The notes below the pieces were generated by a model. The model was not told the origin of the DNA. It made no database searches and worked only from the letters and a program-made list of their open reading frames with translations. The translations under genes were made by a program, and so were the position numbers. Below, one piece after another: positions 50,061 through 58,253 of a stretch of DNA of 64,000 nucleotides; the stretch's first letter is position 1, and every line of letters begins with the position of its first letter. This stretch comes from Hyphomicrobium album. Lineage in GTDB: Bacteria; Pseudomonadota; Alphaproteobacteria; Rhizobiales; Hyphomicrobiaceae. The stretch spans positions 620,001 to 684,000 of the forward strand of contig NZ_WMBQ01000002.1 of the NCBI RefSeq assembly GCF_009708035.1, read 5' to 3'.

Positions 50061-51098
50061 TCAGCGATCGGGGCGCACGAAGGCCTCGACGCGCATGCCG
50101 GGCAGCAGTGGCACGTCGCCTTCGAGATCGATGGTCATCTCCAGCACCTCGATGTCGGACGGGCGGCGCGGACCGCGGGCGGAGATTCGCGGGGTGGCCA
50201 TGGTCGGCGCCAGCGCGGTCACCTTGCCTTCGAAGTCCTTGCCCGGATAGTTGATCGAGCGCACGAACGCCTTCTGGCCGACCTTGATCTTGGCGACGTC
50301 GCCGTCGTCGACCTCGGCCTTGACCTTCAGCACGTCCATGTCGCCGACGACGACGAGCGGGTGCTCGGGCGACGGCGAGACGATCTCACCCTGCTTGACA
50401 GAGAGTTGCAGCACGCTGCCCTTGCGCGGGGTGCGAATACGCGTCTTGTCGAGCTGCGAGGCAGCCAGCGCCACGTTGGCACGAGCCGCAGTGAGCGCCG
50501 ACTCGAACTGGTTCGGCGACGGCAAGCTCGCCTTCGCCTGCGCCTGGGCATACGACAGGCGCTCGCGCTCGACGCGCTCCTGCGCCTTGCCGAGACGGCG
50601 GCGGGCGTCGGCGAGCTGCTGCTCGGTCGCTTCGCCGCGGCGCTTGCCGGTGAGCGCGGCGTCGAGCTCGAAGCGAGCGCCGATGACCTCGCGCTCGGAG
50701 GAGAACACGTTGTCCTCGCCCTTGGTCACGTCCTCGCGGCCGCTGGTCGAGGGCTCGGCGTCGCGCTGACGCTTGCGCAGGCCCGCTTCGGCCTCCGCCG
50801 CGGCGAGACGCGCACGTGCCTCCTCGTCATCAAGACGGATGAGCAACTCGCCCTCCTCGACGTCGTCGTTGAGCTTCACCGTCACGTCGGCGACTTGGCC
50901 GAGGATGGCGACGCCGATGTTGACCTCGCCGGAGCCGGGCTCGACCCGGCCGGGCGCGGCGGCGACCCATTGGGCGCCGGTTTTGGGCGTCTCCTTGGCG
51001 GTTTTAGTCTCGCCGGAGAAGTAGGTGCCCTCGCTCAGCACGTAGCCGAGAAGGGCGGCCGCGACCAGCGCCGCGACGATACCGATAGTTCTAAGCAT
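50061..51098 (-). CDS. HlyD/DevB-type periplasmic adaptor
   Basis: 345 residues. N-terminal anchor IVAALVAAALLGYVLSEG, then lipoyl halves around a long coiled coil (about residues 110-215, rich in Glu, Arg, Ala) and a C-terminal barrel (VVVGDMDVLKVKAEVDDGDV, GMRVEAFVRPDR). The layout is that of adaptors of the DevBCA/MacAB-like exporters. The start ATG 51096-51098 overlaps the ATPase stop by eight bases. It is last in a three-gene operon with its ATPase and permease; an outer-membrane TolC-type partner is not in the window. Confidence 0.88.
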   Translation of the reverse strand: MLRTIGIVAALVAAALLGYVLSEGTYFSGETKTAKETPKTGAQWVAAAPGRVEPGSGEVNIGVAILGQVADVTVKLNDDVEEGELLIRLDDEEARARLAAAEAEAGLRKRQRDAEPSTSGREDVTKGEDNVFSSEREVIGARFELDAALTGKRRGEATEQQLADARRRLGKAQERVERERLSYAQAQAKASLPSPNQFESALTAARANVALAASQLDKTRIRTPRKGSVLQLSVKQGEIVSPSPEHPLVVVGDMDVLKVKAEVDDGDVAKIKVGQKAFVRSINYPGKDFEGKVTALAPTMATPRISARGPRRPSDIEVLEMTIDLEGDVPLLPGMRVEAFVRPDR

Positions 51099-51957
51099 TT
51101 CGTCTGATCCTATAGCGGCCGCCGAGACCTTTCGGCGATGTGTTGGAGTCATCGTCATTCGGCGTCGGCTCGGTGACGGGTATCACCAGCTCGGCGCGTT
51201 CATGAGCTTCGTGTTGTTCGGCGGCATGGGCGTAGGTCGGGTTGGCACCTTTCTGCGGCCGCTCGTCACTGTGAATCTTACCGTCCTCGATGCGCACGAT
51301 GCGGTCGGCATAAGGCAGTGTGCGGTGATCGTGTGTAACGGCGAGAACAGCTCGGTTGGGATCTTTGGCGACCTCGGAGAGAAGCGCCATCACCGCCCGG
51401 CCGTTCTCCGCGTCGAGTGCAGCCGTCGGCTCGTCGGCGAGGATCACCGACGGCGCGCCGGCGAGCGCGCGGGCCAGCGCGACGCGCTGCTTCTCGCCGC
51501 CCGACAGTTTTGCCGGGTAGGTGTTGGCGCGATGGCCAAGGCCCACCGCGATGAGCGCATTGAGGGCGTGGACCGGAGGGTCGACGACCGGCTTGGCGCG
51601 CACGTCGAGGGCCAGCATGACGTTCTCGGTTGCCGTCATGGTGGGGAACAGGTTGTACCCCTGGAACACGAAGCCGACGTGCTGGCGCCGGACGTTGGCG
51701 AGACCCTCTGCATCGAGGCCGACCGTCTGGTTGCCGGCCACATCGAGCTGGCCCTCGGTCGGCGACAGGATGCAGCCGAGGATCGACAACAGAGTCGTCT
51801 TGCCCGAGCCCGACGGTCCCATGAGTAGGGTGAGCTCGCCCGAGTAGAGCTTGAGATCGATGCCTTTCAGCGGCCTCACCTCGTAGGCGCCCGAGCCGAA
51901 CACCTTCACAATGTCGCGGGCCTCGAGCAGGACCTTGCGGTCCGGGTTGGCGGTCAT
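51091..51957 (-). CDS. ABC exporter ATPase, DevA/LolD type
   Basis: 288 residues. Walker A GPSGSGKTTLLSILG, Q-loop VFQGYNLFPTMTATENV, signature KLSGGEKQRVALARAL, Walker B ILADEPTAALD and switch VTHDHR. The first 225 residues are a standard LolD/MacB-type ATPase; a hydrophilic C-terminal tail (about 60 residues) is extra. The start overlaps the permease stop by four bases (ATGA). Together with the neighbours it forms a DevBCA-type exporter. Confidence 0.92.
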   Translation of the reverse strand: MTANPDRKVLLEARDIVKVFGSGAYEVRPLKGIDLKLYSGELTLLMGPSGSGKTTLLSILGCILSPTEGQLDVAGNQTVGLDAEGLANVRRQHVGFVFQGYNLFPTMTATENVMLALDVRAKPVVDPPVHALNALIAVGLGHRANTYPAKLSGGEKQRVALARALAGAPSVILADEPTAALDAENGRAVMALLSEVAKDPNRAVLAVTHDHRTLPYADRIVRIEDGKIHSDERPQKGANPTYAHAAEQHEAHERAELVIPVTEPTPNDDDSNTSPKGLGGRYRIRRNA

Positions 51958-53147
51958 CGGCTGAACACTCCTGCGGGATCGATGCGCGTCACCTTGAAGA
52001 TGGCCGAAACGGCGGCGATGGCGCACATGCCAATAGTGAGAGCGAAGAGAAGCAGGGCGAGGCCCGGCGTCATGATGATGAATAGAGTGGTGTCCTTCGA
52101 CGCCCAGATGACGAGCATCGACAGCACCATCCCGATGCCGTAGCCGACCACGGCCGACATCATGGCCTGGAAAAGGATGACCTTGTGAATGTATCCGGCC
52201 GAGGCGCCGAGGGCGCGCAGGGTGGCGAACTCATTCAAGTGGTCCTTGGTGCTCGAGTAGAGCGTCTGGGCGACGATGACGACGCCGACGATCATGCCAA
52301 GCGCGGCACCGGCGATGAGCGCCGAGCCGGCGCCCGTCTGGAACAGCCAGTAGTCGACGCTGCGGTTGCGGAACTCCTGTTGGGTGAGGATCTCGCGATC
52401 CTGCAGCCGGGCCATGAGGTCTGCGCGCACGGTCTCGATGTCGGCGCCGGGCTCCAGCCGCACCAGCGTATAGGAGGACTGGTTGCTGCCGGCGTCGAGC
52501 AGCGTACGGGCGAGGTTCAAGGAAGTGAACACGTAAGGCAGCGTCGTGAAGGAGCGGATGGCGTGCGTCACGGCGGCTATCTTGACGCGCATACCGTTGA
52601 TCTCGGCCGTCTCACCGTTGTTCTCGACGCCGAGATCCTTGAAGTAGGTGTCGTCGACGGCGACCGACAAGGGTGCATCGAGGTCGCCGAGGTTGCCGGC
52701 GACGAGGTTCCAAGGCTTCAGCGTGCCGTCCTCATGATCCGAGCCGACGATCAACACTGCCGTCATGCCGCCCTTGGGCTTGCGCCAGGCAGCAAAGCCG
52801 ACAACCAGCTCTTCGCTGCCGGCGACGCCTTTCGTCGACAGCACCGAATACTTCTCGTGGCCGATGAGCAGCGATGGATCGTCGAAGCTTTTAGTGCCGA
52901 GCGGTGCCACCCAAAGGTCGCCCTTCGACTGGTCGAGCATGGCGGCGATCATCCGCTCCGAGCCGATGTACAGGCCGCACTGAACGGCGACGAGCACGAC
53001 GGAGAAGACGATGCCGGTGAGCGTGACGATGAGACTGAGACGATCGTGAAACAGATTTCGGTAGGCAAGCTTGCCCGCCATCTTGACGGTCTTCGGCTTG
53101 CCTTGCGGTACCTGTGCCTGGATAGGCAAAGTATCGGCTTGCGCCAT
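51954..53147 (-). CDS. FtsX-type ABC permease, DevC family
   Basis: 397 residues with the MacB/DevC layout: helix 1 (LIVTLTGIVFSVVLVAVQCGL), a large periplasmic domain of about 200 residues, then three helices near the C-terminus (LIAGAALGMIVGVVIVAQ, VVGYGIGMVLSMLVIW, LALLLFALTIGMCAIAAV). The DHLNEFATLRALGASAGYI segment before helix 3 is typical. First gene of the three-gene operon. Substrate is unknown; DevBCA of cyanobacteria exports envelope lipids. Confidence 0.9.
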   Translation of the reverse strand: MAQADTLPIQAQVPQGKPKTVKMAGKLAYRNLFHDRLSLIVTLTGIVFSVVLVAVQCGLYIGSERMIAAMLDQSKGDLWVAPLGTKSFDDPSLLIGHEKYSVLSTKGVAGSEELVVGFAAWRKPKGGMTAVLIVGSDHEDGTLKPWNLVAGNLGDLDAPLSVAVDDTYFKDLGVENNGETAEINGMRVKIAAVTHAIRSFTTLPYVFTSLNLARTLLDAGSNQSSYTLVRLEPGADIETVRADLMARLQDREILTQQEFRNRSVDYWLFQTGAGSALIAGAALGMIVGVVIVAQTLYSSTKDHLNEFATLRALGASAGYIHKVILFQAMMSAVVGYGIGMVLSMLVIWASKDTTLFIIMTPGLALLLFALTIGMCAIAAVSAIFKVTRIDPAGVFSR

Positions 53148-53282: not shown

Positions 53283-53807
53283 TCATTCGCACCGCACTGA
53301 AAGCGTCATGCCAACGGAGGGAAAGAACTTCTTGCAGTCAAGCTTTCCGGCGGTCTTGTCCGGCTTTGCCTCGTCTTTCGCGGACTTGGCATCGACCTTA
53401 ACTGCAACCGGGGTTTCGGTTTCCGGCTCGGCGATGGCCGAAGTCTTGATGGGCTCGGCAGCGCTCGCGATCGACGAGTTCTCGGTGTCGGCGATCACCT
53501 CCACCTCGTCGGTGACCGGCGCAGTGGCGACGACCTCCGGCTTGGACACCTTCTTGTCGACCTTGGCGACCTTGGAAACCGACGGCGTCGACTTCTTGGC
53601 GACGTATGTCTTCTTCGCGACCCGGCGCGCGATGTAGCGCTTACGCTTGTAGTGGCGATGACTGTAGCCGCCACCGCCGCCGTGCGAGTTGAATGCCGGG
53701 AACCCACCGAACCCGAGCCGGATCTTGAGACCCGCCTCCGCCGACGACGCGAAAATGGTCGCCGCCGCGATCAGCGTGCCGATGAGAGCGACTAGGGACT
53801 TATTCAT
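53283..53807 (-). CDS. Secreted paralog 1 of the ENSS/FFPSVGMTLSVPC family
   Basis: 174 residues. Signal peptide MNKSLVALIGTLIAAATIFA with cleavage near SSAEA. A Gly/His-rich patch (SHGGGGGYSHRHYKRKRY) and a long Lys/Val/Ala-rich variable region follow, then the ENSSIASAAEP motif (residues about 113-123) and the terminal LDCKKFFPSVGMTLSVRCE. The two C-terminal cysteines probably form a disulfide. Unlike its three neighbours it has Arg instead of Pro before the last cysteine. Own dyad upstream (53902-53921) and own hairpin downstream. The function is unknown. Confidence 0.7.
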   Translation of the reverse strand: MNKSLVALIGTLIAAATIFASSAEAGLKIRLGFGGFPAFNSHGGGGGYSHRHYKRKRYIARRVAKKTYVAKKSTPSVSKVAKVDKKVSKPEVVATAPVTDEVEVIADTENSSIASAAEPIKTSAIAEPETETPVAVKVDAKSAKDEAKPDKTAGKLDCKKFFPSVGMTLSVRCE

Positions 53808-53901
53808 TTCTTTCTCCAGTGCCTTCCTGTTCGTGTTGCGAACGATGGGCGGCGCGGGTTGCGCTCACCTTGGCGCTTGTTTGCCAGGGATTGGAAATGG
53901 A

Positions 53902-53921
53902 CGCTGTTCCAGCAGGCACAG
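53902..53921 (-). promoter_or_regulatory. Shared dyad site S1, upstream of secreted paralog 1
   Basis: Minus strand reads CTGTGCCTGCTGGAACAGCG, 94 bases before the start codon. It matches 18 of 20 positions of the perfect-looking copy S4. Confidence 0.6.
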
Positions 53922-53971
53922 GTCGAGAGTGTTTCGCGGGCATGCGTCGGCGACCGCCACGTCGAAAAGCA

Positions 53972-54001
53972 AACGGCCCCGGACACGATGCCGGGGCCGT
54001 T
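53972..54001 (-). terminator. Hairpin after secreted paralog 2
   Basis: Perfect 11-bp stem AACGGCCCCGG (53972-53982) and CCGGGGCCGTT (53991-54001), eight-base loop, 23 bases past the stop of paralog 2; followed leftward by TTGCTTTTCGAC. Confidence 0.72.
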
Positions 54002-54024
54002 GCGTGCTGCTCAATTTAGGCGGG

Positions 54025-54540
54025 TTACTTGGCGCAGGGGACCGAGAGGGTCATGCCCACGGTGGCGAAGAAGGATTTGCAGCCGATGTCCTTGATGGCC
54101 GCGGCGACCTTCTGCGCCGGCTCCTCGGCCGGAGCGGCGGCAACCTTCGCGAGCTTCTTCGCGGGCACGTCCACCGGAGTTTCGACGACGGCCTCGGCGA
54201 CTTCCTTCGAGGTCGAAATCGACGAGTTCTCGAACTCGGCCGACTTCTGCGCGATCTTCTCGACAGGCGCCGTCTTGGGCTCGGCCTTGGCGACGACCGC
54301 AGGCTTTTCGATCGTACGGCTCGCGGTCTGCACCTTGGCGGCGCTGCGGCGCACGGACTGACGCACCACGCGCTTGCGATAGGCGCGGTAACCGCCGCCA
54401 CCGCCGCCACACCCGGCCTTGTGGACCTGGTTGAAGCCGGCGGGAGCGGCGAGGCGGACATTGAAGGCGGCCTCGGCGCCGGTGGCGACGGAGGCGAGGG
54501 CGACGAGGGTGGCGGCGATCACGGTGAGCAGCTTGGTCAT
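54025..54540 (-). CDS. Secreted paralog 2 of the ENSS/FFPSVGMTLSVPC family
   Basis: 171 residues. Signal peptide MTKLLTVIAATLVALASVAT with cleavage near GAEA. A Gly patch with one Cys (HKAGCGGGGGGYRAYRKR) parallels paralog 1. A variable Lys/Ala-rich part carries EFENSSISTSKEV and the C-terminus is IGCKSFFATVGMTLSVPCAK, with Ala replacing Pro after FF. The ATG at 54538-54540 is chosen because the signal peptide begins there. The dyad is at 54601-54620 and the hairpin at 53972-54001. Confidence 0.7.
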   Translation of the reverse strand: MTKLLTVIAATLVALASVATGAEAAFNVRLAAPAGFNQVHKAGCGGGGGGYRAYRKRVVRQSVRRSAAKVQTASRTIEKPAVVAKAEPKTAPVEKIAQKSAEFENSSISTSKEVAEAVVETPVDVPAKKLAKVAAAPAEEPAQKVAAAIKDIGCKSFFATVGMTLSVPCAK

Positions 54541-54600
54541 GGTCGTCTCCGGGGACTGGTGTTCAAATCTGCGTCCACTTTGGGCGAGATGCCGCGCCGT

Positions 54601-54620
54601 CGCTGTCTCGGCCGGAACAG
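54601..54620 (-). promoter_or_regulatory. Shared dyad site S2, upstream of secreted paralog 2
   Basis: Minus strand reads CTGTTCCGGCCGAGACAGCG, 60 bases before the start codon. The left half CTGTTCC is intact; the right half is GAGACAG instead of GGAACAG. Confidence 0.58.
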
Positions 54621-54664
54621 GGCTGGGGAATTTCGCGGGCCGGCCGCCCGCGCTGCAAAGCAAA

Positions 54665-54690
54665 CGACCCCGGCCGGAGGCGCGGGGTCG
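54665..54690 (-). terminator. Hairpin after secreted paralog 3
   Basis: 7-bp stem CGACCCC (54665-54671) and GGGGTCG (54684-54690) with a 12-base GC-rich loop, 27 bases past the paralog 3 stop. Followed leftward by TTTGCTTTGC. Confidence 0.6.
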
Positions 54691-54717
54691 GTGCAGGCGC
54701 GGGGCTCTGGGACGGCG

Positions 54718-55200
54718 CTAATCGCAGGGGACCGACAGCGTCATGCCGACGGAGGGGAAATAGCTCTTGCAGCCGGTCGAGCGGCTCGCCTTACGCTCGC
54801 GGGGCGCATCTTCATGGCTGGCGTCGTCGGCCGCGACTTCGCTAGACCCCGTGGCAACGGAAGAATTCTCCTTGGCGACCTTGGTGCGGACCGTGCGCGG
54901 CTCCGACTGGGCCGGGGCGGACGGCTTGGGCTCGGCGACGGTCTGTTCGGGCTGCTGCTGTCGGGGAGCGCCGCGTTGAGCGGCACGGCGGCGCGAGGCG
55001 CCGGAAGATCCGGGAGACCCGCGACTGTAATAGCCCTCCTCGGCGGCTTCCTCGCGGGCGGATTCGCGGTCGTAAGCGCGTTCGTAGGCGGCTTCGTGGC
55101 GCTCGTAGGCGCAGTCCTCGTCGCAGGCTTTGGCGCCCGGCGTGACGGTAGCTGCGAGGGTTAGAAACGTGACGGCGGTAGCGGCGAGAAGTTTGAGCAT
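54718..55200 (-). CDS. Secreted paralog 3 of the ENSS/FFPSVGMTLSVPC family
   Basis: 160 residues. Signal peptide MLKLLAATAVTFLTLAATVT. The mature N-terminus has two cysteines (ACDEDCAYERHE) and a strongly charged stretch (YERAYDRESAREEAAEEGYY) replacing the Gly patch of paralogs 1 and 2, so this region diverges freely. AKENSSVATGSSEV and the C-terminal TGCKSYFPSVGMTLSVPCD are kept. Own dyad (55258-55277) and own hairpin (54665-54690). Confidence 0.7.
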   Translation of the reverse strand: MLKLLAATAVTFLTLAATVTPGAKACDEDCAYERHEAAYERAYDRESAREEAAEEGYYSRGSPGSSGASRRRAAQRGAPRQQQPEQTVAEPKPSAPAQSEPRTVRTKVAKENSSVATGSSEVAADDASHEDAPRERKASRSTGCKSYFPSVGMTLSVPCD

Positions 55201-55257
55201 GTCGTCCCCAAGCGGTTAGGCATCGCGGGGAGCATGATGAATGCCGGCTGAACGCTG

Positions 55258-55277
55258 CGCTGTTCCGCGCGGTACAC
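55258..55277 (-). promoter_or_regulatory. Shared dyad site S3, upstream of secreted paralog 3
   Basis: Minus strand reads GTGTACCGCGCGGAACAGCG, 57 bases before the start codon. The right half GGAACAGCG is exact and the left half is weaker. Confidence 0.55.
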
Positions 55278-55306
55278 GCGCGTCGAGCGTCCGGCGCTCC
55301 AACGCA

Positions 55307-55336
55307 ATCGACCCCGGCGTTTCCGCCGGGGTCGAT
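55307..55336 (-). terminator. Hairpin after secreted paralog 4
   Basis: Perfect 13-bp stem ATCGACCCCGGCG (55307-55319) and CGCCGGGGTCGAT (55324-55336), loop of four bases, 30 bases past the paralog 4 stop. Its core CGACCCC matches the stem after paralog 3. Confidence 0.75.
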
Positions 55337-55366
55337 GATGTCAGGAGGCAGATGTGCCCGGTTCCT

Positions 55367-55960
55367 TTACTCGCAGGGCACCGACAGCGTCATGCCGGCC
55401 GAGGGGAAGAACTTCTTGCAGTCGAGGCTCTTCGCTTCCTTGCTCGCGGTCTTGGTGTCGGTGTCGGTGTCGGTGCTGGCGGTATCGATCTTCTTCGCCG
55501 TGTCCTGCGACTTGGCGTCGGCGAGCGAGATTGACGAATTCTCGGTCTGGGCGGTTGCCGTATCGGTCGAGCCGGTGGTTACGGGCGCCGGAGCGGACTC
55601 GCCGGCCAACCTGGCGATGCTGCTCGGCTCGTTGCTGGCGTCGGTCGACGGCTTGGCATCGGCGGTCTCGGTCTTGGCCTTCGACTCGCTCTTAGCCTCT
55701 TGCGAATTCGACTTCGATTTCTTGCTGGTGACTTTCTTTTCCGAGCTGCTCTCGCGGCGAGAAGAGCGCTCCTTCTTGCGCTGGCGGTATTCACGTGCCT
55801 CGTAGCTGCCGCGGCCGCTGTTGGACATGGCGCCTATGGCTCCGAGGCCAACGCCGATTCCGATGCCGATTCCGACGCCGCGCATGCCCGCTTGCGCCGT
55901 CGACAGCGTGGTGGTGAAGGCGAGTAGGAGGGCGGCGGCAAGGGTGAGCAGCTTATTCAT
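55367..55960 (-). CDS. Secreted paralog 4 of the ENSS/FFPSVGMTLSVPC family
   Basis: 197 residues, the longest member. Signal peptide MNKLLTLAAALLLAFTTTLS. A Gly/Ile stretch (GVGIGIGIGVGLGAIGAM) could be a glycine-zipper segment that inserts in a membrane. A Ser/Lys/Glu-rich part follows, then QTENSSISLADAK and the C-terminal LDCKKFFPSAGMTLSVPCE. Probably first of the tandem set by position, and it has the best-formed dyad (56037-56056). Function unknown, exported by Sec. Confidence 0.7.
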   Translation of the reverse strand: MNKLLTLAAALLLAFTTTLSTAQAGMRGVGIGIGIGVGLGAIGAMSNSGRGSYEAREYRQRKKERSSRRESSSEKKVTSKKSKSNSQEAKSESKAKTETADAKPSTDASNEPSSIARLAGESAPAPVTTGSTDTATAQTENSSISLADAKSQDTAKKIDTASTDTDTDTKTASKEAKSLDCKKFFPSAGMTLSVPCE

Positions 55961-56036: not shown

Positions 56037-56056
56037 CGCTGTTCCAGCCGGAACAG
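56037..56056 (-). promoter_or_regulatory. Shared dyad site S4, upstream of secreted paralog 4
   Basis: Minus strand reads CTGTTCCGGCTGGAACAGCG. CTGTTCC and GGAACAG are exact inverses around a four-base centre. It lies 76 bases before the start codon and is the best copy of the five. Confidence 0.65.
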
Positions 56057-56477: not shown

Positions 56478-56966
56478 ATGCGCCTCAATAAATCCACGAG
56501 CCACGCTGTCCGCATCCTGATCGACTGTGCCAAAGCCGAGTCCCGGTTGGTCAAGGTGGCCGATATCGCCGAGCGGCTCGACATCACCCAGCAGAACGCT
56601 TTCAAGATCGTGCATCTGCTGTCCAAGGCCGGTTTCCTGACCTCGGTGCGCGGTCGCCACGGCGGCGTGCGTCTCGCCCGCCCGGCGGTGCAGATCCGCG
56701 TTGGCGACGTCGTCCGGTCGATCGAGACCCTTGGCCAGGAGGAGAAGCCGGCCGGCACTGGCGGCAACCTCCACCGCATCGTCGATGACGCCCTCGACGC
56801 CTTCATCAGCGTGCTGGACCAGCACACGCTGGAGGACATGGCGGGGGCATCCCAGTCTACCGGGACGCGAGAATCCGGCGGGCGCTCGGGCAAGTCGCGT
56901 TCGGGCGGGGGCTCCGGCCGCTCCCGGCGCGGGCCGCAGCAGTCCGCGCCGCGGACTCTTGGTTAA
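56478..56966 (+). CDS. Rrf2-family transcriptional regulator
   Basis: 162 residues. The N-terminal winged helix is typical: MRLNKSTSHAVRILIDCAK, VADIAERLDITQQNAFKIVH and GRHGGVRLARP. The three cysteines that hold the Fe-S cluster in NsrR, IscR and RirA are missing (only one Cys, in the first helix), so it cannot be a canonical Fe-S sensor. The C-terminal 35 residues are Ser/Gly/Arg-rich and probably disordered. Lying just before bfd and bfr, it may control iron storage or another oxidative function. Confidence 0.88.
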   Translation: MRLNKSTSHAVRILIDCAKAESRLVKVADIAERLDITQQNAFKIVHLLSKAGFLTSVRGRHGGVRLARPAVQIRVGDVVRSIETLGQEEKPAGTGGNLHRIVDDALDAFISVLDQHTLEDMAGASQSTGTRESGGRSGKSRSGGGSGRSRRGPQQSAPRTLG

Positions 56967-57062
56967 CGCCGGCCAGCTAATCCTCGACACGAGCGCTCAC
57001 GAGTAGATCGCCGAATTGTGCGGCGTAAGAGCGCTTGACACGAGCCTTCCGGCCTTCAAATG

Positions 57063-57079
57063 TGGAAACGTCATTTCCA
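57063..57079. promoter_or_regulatory. Dyad operator before bfd
   Basis: TGGAAA (57063-57068) and TTTCCA (57074-57079) form a perfect 6-bp dyad around CGTCA. A TTGACA (57035-57040) lies at a -35 distance, so the dyad would cover the -10 region of a promoter for bfd, which starts 52 bases later. Regulator unknown. Confidence 0.45.
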
Positions 57080-57130
57080 TATTTAAAGCACGCGCAGCCT
57101 TAGAGAAAATGCGCGCAGGGAAGCCCGGCG

Positions 57131-57475
57131 ATGATCGTCTGTTCTTGTACTGAGATTTCTGATCGCGACATCGAAAGCGCGTTGCTCGAGATCCTGCGTG
57201 CACCCGATGCACCGATCCCGACGCCCGGCATCGTCTATCGTCATCTCGCCAAGCGCATGAACTGCTGCAGCTGCGCGCCGCTCGCCGTCGAGACGATCTA
57301 CAACAAGGTCGATGCGCTGGAGAAGAAGGGCCTGATCTCTCCGACGCTCAGTGCGACGACGCGCTCGAAGCTGCTCGAGTTCACGTCACTCCGTTCGAGC
57401 CCTCGCATCTTGTCGCGCAATTCTGACCCCGAGACTCAGACTTCCGACGACAACGTCGTTCGCAAGATCGCCTGA
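57131..57475 (+). CDS. bfd: Bacterioferritin-associated ferredoxin with C-terminal extension
   Basis: 114 residues. The first 60 match Bfd: MIVCSCTEISDRDIESAL and MNCCSCAPLAVETIY, giving ligands Cys4, Cys6, Cys45 and Cys48 for one [2Fe-2S] cluster. Bfd delivers electrons to bacterioferritin so that iron can be released. The last 50 residues (from about 65, Ser/Arg/Thr-rich, ending NVVRKIA) are an unusual extension. Its 3' end is partly duplicated in the next small ORF. Bfr follows 280 bases later. Confidence 0.85.
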   Translation: MIVCSCTEISDRDIESALLEILRAPDAPIPTPGIVYRHLAKRMNCCSCAPLAVETIYNKVDALEKKGLISPTLSATTRSKLLEFTSLRSSPRILSRNSDPETQTSDDNVVRKIA

Positions 57476-57485
57476 ACGACGGTCC

Positions 57486-57608
57486 ATGAGTGCGCCGAAG
57501 CGCTCGCACTCCCCACATTCACGGCACTTCCTCGACAAGCGCACGAAGCAGCGGAATTCTGAGTCCGAGACTCAGGCTTCGCAGGAATGCGTTCGCAAAA
57601 TCGCTTGA
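57486..57608 (+). CDS. 40-residue ORF duplicating the end of bfd
   Basis: Starts ATG 57486, ends TGA 57608. The C-terminal RNSESETQASQECVRKIA matches the end of Bfd, RNSDPETQTSDDNVVRKIA, and the DNA is similarly related (57540-57608 against 57419-57475). The N-terminal part (MSAPKRSHSPHSRHFLDKR) is basic and different. It might be a small protein or only a remnant of a tandem duplication. Confidence 0.35.
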   Translation: MSAPKRSHSPHSRHFLDKRTKQRNSESETQASQECVRKIA

Positions 57609-57619
57609 GCGAATTTTAC

Positions 57620-57636
57620 ACTAGAATCATTCTCAT
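57620..57636. promoter_or_regulatory. Irr-type iron-control element (ICE) before bfr
   Basis: ACTAGAATCATTCTCAT is a near dyad around TAGAAnnATTCT, similar to the Irr operator known in Hyphomicrobiales (TAGAA and TTCTA half-sites). It is 120 bases before bfr, a recognised Irr target in related bacteria. Confidence 0.5.
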
Positions 57637-57755
57637 TAACGAACCAATATCGCACCGCGTCCTCCGATCGAGGATCGCGTTCCTGAGCGACGTCGCCGTG
57701 CGCGCCAACGTCAGACTCAGTACCCAAGCATATCGTTGAGGCACAGAGGGCGGCC

Positions 57756-58253
57756 ATGAAAGGCAACAAGGAAGTTATCGACGCGCTGAACTTCGCGCTC
57801 AAGTTGGAGCTCGGCGCGGTCAATCAATATTGGCTGCATTATCGTCGGCTCGACGACTGGGGCTACACGAAGATCGCCAAGAAGGAGCGCGAGGAATCGA
57901 TCGAGGAGATGCATCACGCCGACAAGCTGATCACGCGCATCATCTTCCTTGAGGGCTTCCCCAAGATGCAGGAGATCGCGCCGATGATGATCGGCGAGAA
58001 CCTGAAAGAGGTGCTCGAGTGCGATCTGAAGGGCGAGTACATCGCGCAGGAGTTCTATTCCAAGGCGCGTGAGCTGTGCCGTCAGCACAAGGACTACGTG
58101 TCGATGGATCTCTTCGAGGAACTCCTGAAGGACGAAGAAGGCCACATCGACTTCATCGAGACGCAGCTCGACCTGTTGAAGAGCATCGGCATCCAGAACT
58201 ACGGGCAGCTGCAGGCGGATTCGGCCGACAAGGTCGAAGGCCACGCTGACTGA
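57756..58253 (+). CDS. bfr: Bacterioferritin
   Basis: 165 residues; subunit of the 24-mer iron-storage shell. The ferroxidase ligands are seen as Glu18 ([10 protein letters not shown]), Glu51 and His54 in EEMHHADK, then Glu94, Glu127 and His130 (DEEGHIDF region). Met52 is the haem ligand. Bfd 280 bases upstream serves in iron release, and an Irr-type box lies between the two. Confidence 0.95.

Follow-up and report, generated by a model that had tools for sequence, protein, structure and literature searches.

Why should four neighbouring genes for exported-looking proteins end in the same short, cysteine-bounded tail? The genes lie on one strand of a stretch of Hyphomicrobium album DNA (64,000 nucleotides of contig NZ_WMBQ01000002.1, positions 620,001 to 684,000; hereafter the window, with positions counted from its first letter), and each tail reads C-K-x-[FY]-F-[PA]-[ST]-[VA]-GMTLSV-x-C, followed by one or two residues before the stop codon. 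At the level of sequence, the comparisons presented here show a portable, mostly C-terminal module that is linked to, and co-occurs with, one clade (clade A) of DevC-like ATP-binding cassette (ABC) permeases, and a palindrome common to the genes that carry it. We propose, giving the idea very nearly an even chance, that the tail acts as a C-terminal tag for export, recognised by the DevCAB-like exporter to which the permease belongs.

The tail module and its carriers

The original prediction of four same-strand genes for exported proteins with a common C-terminal tail is borne out by the open reading frames (ORFs), the tail pattern and the search statistics. With one array tail as query, the other three were recovered from the same genome at expect values (E) of 1.9e-7, 3.9e-6 and 1e-4, so their likeness is far beyond chance, and all four proteins have a signal-peptide-like N-terminus, as judged by eye and by a crude rule. 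For genes 1, 3 and 4 the positional orthologs compared came from four congeners, and for gene 2 from two. Because identity among them was 0.69–0.95 over the last 20 residues, versus 0.33–0.75 in the signal peptide and 0.42–0.58 in the middle, the tail is the best-conserved part of the array proteins; that the C-terminus is conserved above the signal peptide had been correctly noted. None of the four array proteins matched a Pfam or NCBIfam model above its curated cut-off, the best sub-cut-off matches being Utp14 (15.6 of 30.2 bits) and MamD (18.8 of 100 bits), and the suggestion that no described family has this tail holds against Pfam, NCBIfam, the PDB searched by sequence and the literature searched.

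More generally, the tail is a C-x14-C module of roughly 18 residues with two cysteines 15 residues apart, and two profile models were used to follow it: model A3, of 20 tails, and the broader model A4, of 65. Across the 103 genomes of the family, that is, Hyphomicrobium and its relatives, model A3 found the tail in 60 (E <= 0.01) and model A4 in 83 (E <= 0.001). The order sample gave matches to model A3 in 8 of 297 genomes, seven of them members of the same family; the eighth (G238) was a weak match in a 69-residue frame, taken as chance. Model A4 matched 3 of the 289 genomes in the class sample, namely the H. album genome itself and two with matches of 11–12 residues, also taken as chance. 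As far as sampled, the module appears confined to its own family within the order (model A3) and the class (model A4). A single-tail query, with E allowed up to 1, produced a candidate in G028 of another family (E 0.279), which lay in a 90-residue frame containing a stop and was likewise taken as chance. The apparent lack of the tail in genus g10, a result of model A3, was overturned by diverged tails and A4 matches: in each of the 22 g10 clade-A loci read, the protein encoded upstream bears a diverged form of the tail (CRRYSAAIAGLVDVPC and alike), and matches to model A4 are present in g10 genomes.

The other half of the proposed pair of signatures, the ENSS motif, did not extend so far. ENSS[IV] is found in all four array proteins, 50–68 residues from the C-terminus, and in its strict form in 15 of 31 tail proteins from the same genus versus 0 of 118 from other genera (23/31 versus 1/118 with a relaxed pattern). 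The absence of the strict motif from all 118 other-genus carriers rules it out as a second family signature, and by these counts it is a genus-level motif only.

The array is only part of the tail protein set of its own genome. A tail search there gave nine matches, the last three of them weak, and model A4 gave ten at E <= 0.001; outside the window the tail ends two more short proteins and two TPR proteins, and a weaker version stands at the end of one further protein. Relatives in named records came from Hyphomicrobium species and metagenome-assembled genomes (MAGs) and from one uncultured Rhizobiales MAG (10 loci). Tail-bearing genomes have from 1 to 12 matches each. In the loci studied there are 162 distinct tail hits, 155 of which end no more than three residues from the stop codon; of the remaining seven, one ends 7 residues from the stop, two (14 and 29 residues) are chance-like, and four are internal or N-terminal. 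A signal-peptide-like start was found for 152 of the 162 by a crude rule that picks the best-looking start codon. Both cysteines are invariant in 65/65 aligned tails, a figure that must be read in light of a selection pattern that itself required cysteines.

Structure prediction for gene 1 by AlphaFold with an alignment of 61 relatives yielded a two-stranded β-hairpin (strands 157–162 and 167–172), with a mean predicted local distance difference test score (pLDDT) of 90 over residues 161–170 and of 61 over the whole model. By sequence position alone, Cys158 and Cys173 would sit at the open end of the hairpin. A search of the PDB by sequence found no resemblance to the tail, its two partial matches being below threshold (best E 0.24), and a fold search with the hairpin model returned one meaningless match (E 6.9).

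The proteins that carry the tail are diverse. They include unclassified low-complexity proteins, TPR proteins, a PDZ/Sel1/peptidoglycan-binding protein and one carrier with a Clp-protease match just under the Pfam cut-off (19.8 of 20.2 bits); in Pfam scans of 17 relatives, those other than the TPR and PDZ/Sel1 carriers had no match above cut-off. Among 19 TPR matches in the 103 genomes, two were left out of the tail count (one broken, one not read), and all 17 that could be read to the end, from five genera, keep the C-terminal tail. It is this presence on TPR, PDZ/Sel1, Clp-like and low-complexity proteins that makes the tail a portable module. The first half of the carriers is the more positively charged in 113 of 118 other-genus and 24 of 31 same-genus proteins, and the second half is more acidic. 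Thus the earlier picture of an interaction or sorting module attached to a variable display or spacer region survives in its first part, the tail being mostly C-terminal, portable, predicted to form a hairpin and exporter-linked; the spacer part fits the short carriers, with their basic first and acidic second halves, but not the TPR or Sel1/PDZ carriers.

A few carriers have unusual architectures. At L118:2773-5643, a 956-residue protein built from peptidoglycan-binding and PDZ domains and Sel1 repeats has its tail mid-protein, between two similar halves, and looks as though two tail-bearing genes had fused. A tail-like C-x14-C lies near the start of an exported-looking protein at L285:1426-2085 (C1:330919 of the H. 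album genome). Two short exported-looking proteins, at L164:5849-6268 and L289:36-482, have an internal tail and then a second common end (CSEILLRIQLDD... and CSEILQRIQLDD...).

Linkage to a DevCAB-like exporter and a common palindrome

Directly downstream of gene 1 and on the same strand lie the permease, ATPase and adaptor genes of an exporter (53147 to 50061; Table 1), which was absent from the original prediction. Related loci long enough to show the three genes keep the same order, and in many genera tail genes again have this set as their neighbour. The best NCBIfam models were DevA for the ATPase, DevC for the permease and EmrA/EmrK for the adaptor, with DevB among the adaptor's matches. 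All fell below the DevBCA cut-offs of TIGR02971, TIGR02982 and TIGR01185 (76.8 of 129, 228.1 of 295.8 and 151.5 of 290.35 bits, respectively).

The family contains two groups of such permeases, which are split in a 106-tip tree; the permease search was taken beyond the family in an order sample of 199 genomes. Clade A comprises 74 of the 106 tips, with support 0.90, and contains no permease that was labelled B by score. With a midpoint root, the clade-B side holds the other 32 (support 0.98): 23 B-labelled permeases, eight homologs from other families and G384 (L211). The last of these, which has no tail, was excluded from clade A on the basis of the tree and also stands outside the clade-B loci counted below, and the permease of G315 (58% identity) was counted in clade A by the tree. 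As a rule there is one clade-A copy per genome, with two in G020.

Linkage was scored by a rule that combined C-x14-17-C within 10 residues of the end with the crude signal-peptide rule. Upstream DNA was covered for every clade-A match of at least 482 bits except that of G327, which lies at a contig start. The count used 67 clade-A loci for which 1 kb or more of upstream sequence was available, including G315 and with L150 and L074, which represent the same G307 permease, counted once; eight clade-A loci with less than 1 kb were excluded, of which five have a tail frame truncated where the contig ends and G022 shows such a frame. A signal-peptide-like tail ORF was present upstream, on the same strand, in 65 of the 67, and the nearest such ORF was less than 400 bp before the permease in 64 of the 65 (746 bp in G021). 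Clade B was sampled at 23 loci, one of which was excluded for having only 61 bp upstream, and an upstream tail ORF was found in 0 of the 22 that were left; a 55-residue frame at L250 fit the regular expression and was removed under a 60-residue rule.

The two features also occur in the same genomes. At the 482-bit cut, 74 of the 103 family genomes have both clade A and the tail, none has clade A alone, nine have the tail alone and 20 have neither (Fisher p about 1e-14, with related genomes treated as independent). Genera g3, g137, g6 and g140 each include genomes with both and genomes with neither, a pattern that relatedness alone explains less well, and some of the "neither" genomes, for instance G379 and G381, are incomplete.

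A palindrome, CTGTTCC-N4-GGAACAG, forms a third tie among the tail genes. With up to three mismatches allowed in the counts, it precedes 114 of the 141 tail genes for which 300 bp of upstream sequence was available, both exporter-linked genes and scattered ones; within the first 300 bp inside the same genes it occurs in 3 of 141, and a cruder control gave 5 of 162. Half of the sites lie within 101 bp of the start codon and 90% at 77–132 bp. All four array genes have one 78–115 bp upstream, with 0–2 mismatches, and the window as a whole has 10 sites versus 2.24 expected. The palindrome is exact before unlinked TPR genes of four genomes and is lacking before the TPR gene at L007, and none was found just upstream of the exporter operon in the window, where the best candidate has six mismatches. 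When 110 upstream regions were aligned on the palindrome, a second element (CAT..T) appeared about 20 bp on, with a preferred CA near the expected transcription start. Since this element and the inferred start put the centre of the palindrome near -41.5, as in class II activator sites, a CRP/FNR-type protein may bind there. For the same reason we dropped an extended stress-type promoter, whose pattern is GGAAC ... CGTT, as an explanation of the palindrome. Genes that by eye are TauD/TfdA-type dioxygenase-like and FecR-domain-like are also preceded by it at L317 and L325 (C1:863212 and C1:1057664 of the H. album genome), which suggests a regulon that extends beyond the tail proteins.

Table 1. 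Features of the tail array, its exporter and its upstream palindromes, in window coordinates
Feature	Position	Strand	Basis or remark
DevB/HlyD-like periplasmic adaptor, start codon uncertain	50061..51158	(-)	NCBIfam
DevA-like ABC ATPase	51091..51957	(-)	NCBIfam
DevC-like (MacB-type) ABC permease, clade A	51954..53147	(-)	NCBIfam, tree
Tail protein gene 1	53283..53807	(-)	174 residues, permease-proximal member of array
C-terminal tail of gene 1, LDCKKFFPSVGMTLSVRCE	53286..53345	(-)	Predicted β-hairpin
Palindrome, gene 1	53904..53921	.	1 mismatch
Tail protein gene 2	54025..54540	(-)	171 residues
C-terminal tail of gene 2	54028..54090	(-)	Tail search
Palindrome, gene 2	54603..54620	.	2 mismatches
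Tail protein gene 3	54718..55200	(-)	160 residues
C-terminal tail of gene 3	54721..54783	(-)	Tail search
Palindrome, gene 3	55260..55277	.	2 mismatches
Tail protein gene 4	55367..55960	(-)	197 residues
C-terminal tail of gene 4	55370..55435	(-)	Tail search
Palindrome, gene 4	56039..56056	.	Exact

On the opposite strand beside the array (56478-58253, +) are genes for an Rrf2-type regulator, a putative bacterioferritin-associated ferredoxin and a bacterioferritin, and this trio adjoins the array in congeners also. The regulator matches the Rrf2 superfamily above cut-off, with RirA as its best subtype, below cut-off; the ferredoxin-like protein is short and cysteine-bearing and was named by eye.

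What the tail may do

If the tail is an export tag, the tail proteins would first cross the inner membrane by Sec, and in the periplasm their two tail cysteines would form a disulfide that closes the β-hairpin. The periplasmic part of the DevC-like permease might then recognise the hairpin and, with its ATPase, the HlyD-like adaptor and a putative TolC-type channel encoded elsewhere, export the protein or deliver it to the outer membrane. A single exporter would handle every tail protein that the cell makes, whether its gene is linked or scattered, and the basic low-complexity bodies would be the part that is displayed or released. We favour this proposal because the tail is a portable module, mostly at the C-terminus, whose genes are largely co-regulated and go with clade A, not with its sister clade B, and because the hairpin is predicted and MacB-type pumps offer a precedent. 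We advance only tentatively, and with somewhat less confidence than tag recognition as such, the wider idea that the disulfide-closed hairpin is a portable address for two-step secretion of many cargoes, such that any Sec-exported protein that acquired the tail would become a substrate, with the palindrome marking most of the regulon.

Several observations weigh against tag recognition by the exporter. Four proteins have the module 69, 69, 174 and 442 residues from their end, the signal-peptide rule is biased toward positives, since it picks the best-looking start codon, and AlphaFold without an alignment gave no hairpin (mean pLDDT 52.9). The palindrome is missing from 27 of 141 carriers and precedes non-tail genes as well. 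Two clade-A loci, that of G315 and the second copy in G020, have no upstream tail; G315, whose permease is clade A by the tree, has no tail anywhere in its genome and, if so counted, is the sole genome with the exporter but without the tail. Conversely, nine genomes have the tail without clade A. In G007 and G336 the carrier lies at a contig end and in G357 it was not located, which leaves G010, G013, G316, G319, G365 and G386 opposed to strict dependence on clade A (G013 and G386 share a genus, and the match in G365 is internal). The co-occurrence test took related genomes as independent. By name the nearest characterised relatives, DevBCA, move glycolipids, and the window proteins score below the DevA, DevB and DevC cut-offs, so the tail proteins are no more than candidate substrates. 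The known cargoes of the Aat pump are recognised via acylation of an N-terminal glycine and not via a C-terminal tag (PMC7943197). Both export and binding of the tail by the exporter are inferred at the sequence level.

The main rival, which we regard as unlikely but worth serious attention, has the exporter moving a lipid or glycolipid and makes the tail proteins envelope matrix proteins whose hairpin binds that lipid or another envelope component, proximity and co-regulation arising from the building of the same layer. DevBCA, the nearest characterised relative by name, exports heterocyst glycolipids in Anabaena, and the related ABC system YbbAP-TesA of E. coli includes a lipid hydrolase, according to the portions of those reports available to us (PMC5985334, PMC8277102; PMC12646458, respectively). 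Alpha/beta hydrolase-like genes, identified by eye, stand beside the clade-B loci L207, L208, L209 and L210 and the clade-A loci L205 and L206 of genus g36, and tails occur in genomes without clade A. This explanation does not by itself account for the same C-terminal module on TPR and Sel1/PDZ proteins, nor for the retention of the diverged g10 tail beside clade A. The tails in genomes without clade A would also suit a stabilising cap, a disulfide hairpin that shields disordered exported proteins from C-terminal proteases, with an ancient gene cluster and a shared promoter behind the linkage. AlphaFold has low confidence in most of the gene 1 body, and most scanned carriers have no domain, as such a cap would suggest; however, the joint occurrence or joint lack of tail and clade A inside four genera and the 0/22 clade-B loci demand more, and we consider the cap improbable. 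Less probable still is a role for the tail proteins as accessory subunits or regulators of the exporter, such as a periplasmic plug or adaptor, with the tail as a docking site. Their close linkage upstream of the permease would fit, as would the recognisable lineage formed by the permease-proximal genes, in which an FGxPLGxF-like N-terminal motif follows the signal peptide (44 of 65 genomes, versus 8 of 86 other carriers; e.g. L197:4340-4909). A subunit, though, would be expected to be single and conserved, whereas genomes with usually one clade-A permease have up to a dozen tail matches on bodies that are unrelated or fast-changing.

Were the tail an export tag, it would bear on how MacB-type ABC exporters choose protein cargo, a question largely open in the literature searched, in which Aat uses N-terminal acylation. 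Within a single bacterial family there are dozens of natural variants of the tag next to one exporter clade, a sister exporter clade that lacks it, and genera in which the pair is present in some genomes and absent from others, and for these reasons cargo recognition is directly testable in cultivable bacteria. The proposal would also give a possible function to many exported proteins in which no domain is known.

Comparison with known systems

In the C-terminal sorting systems based on LPXTG, PEP-CTERM and the type IX C-terminal domain, one machine handles many unrelated proteins through a common C-terminal module. The tails seen here differ in lacking a transmembrane helix or a basic end and in having an ABC exporter as their partner. 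BA14K-type modules of Rhizobiales (PF07886) are likewise short, cysteine-bearing and located at the end of exported low-complexity proteins; none of the 21 tail proteins scanned gave a Pfam match to BA14K. DevBCA-HgdD of Anabaena resembles the window exporter in that the best NCBIfam models of the ATPase and permease are DevA and DevC and the genes lie side by side on one strand; it differs in that all three window proteins fall under the curated cut-offs.

Closer in route are the MacB-type pumps that carry Sec-delivered proteins, disulfide-bonded ones or surface proteins, out of the periplasm, namely STII by MacAB and dispersin and CexE by Aat, as set out in the accessible parts of PMC5985334, PMC8277102 and PMC7943197. 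The path that we propose, from Sec through a disulfide to a MacB-type tripartite pump, is that of STII and MacAB-TolC in E. coli, where the cargo is one small toxin and a portable C-terminal tag goes unmentioned in the available text (PMC5985334); the window exporter is DevA/B/C-like, with permease and ATPase as separate genes, unlike MacAB. Aat (AatPABCD) also handles Sec-delivered small surface proteins with a MacB/Lol-like ABC pump, and in 18.4% of cases its cargo gene is located upstream of the pump operon at a distance of up to 400 bp, as given in the accessible part of PMC7943197. Its cargo mark, as described there, is acylation by AatD of an invariant N-terminal glycine, whereas that of the tail proteins would be a C-terminal cysteine hairpin. 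The pattern AxAG lies within the N-terminal 45 residues in 101 of 156 tail proteins; a glycine near the N-terminus is thus common without being invariant, and without an invariant glycine mark the tail system is not a member of Aat. Neither a C-terminal tag for MacB-type exporters nor this tail is described in the literature searched, which was largely without subscription papers. By analogy, the tail system would add such a tag to an export route that otherwise works like the known two-step MacB-type systems.

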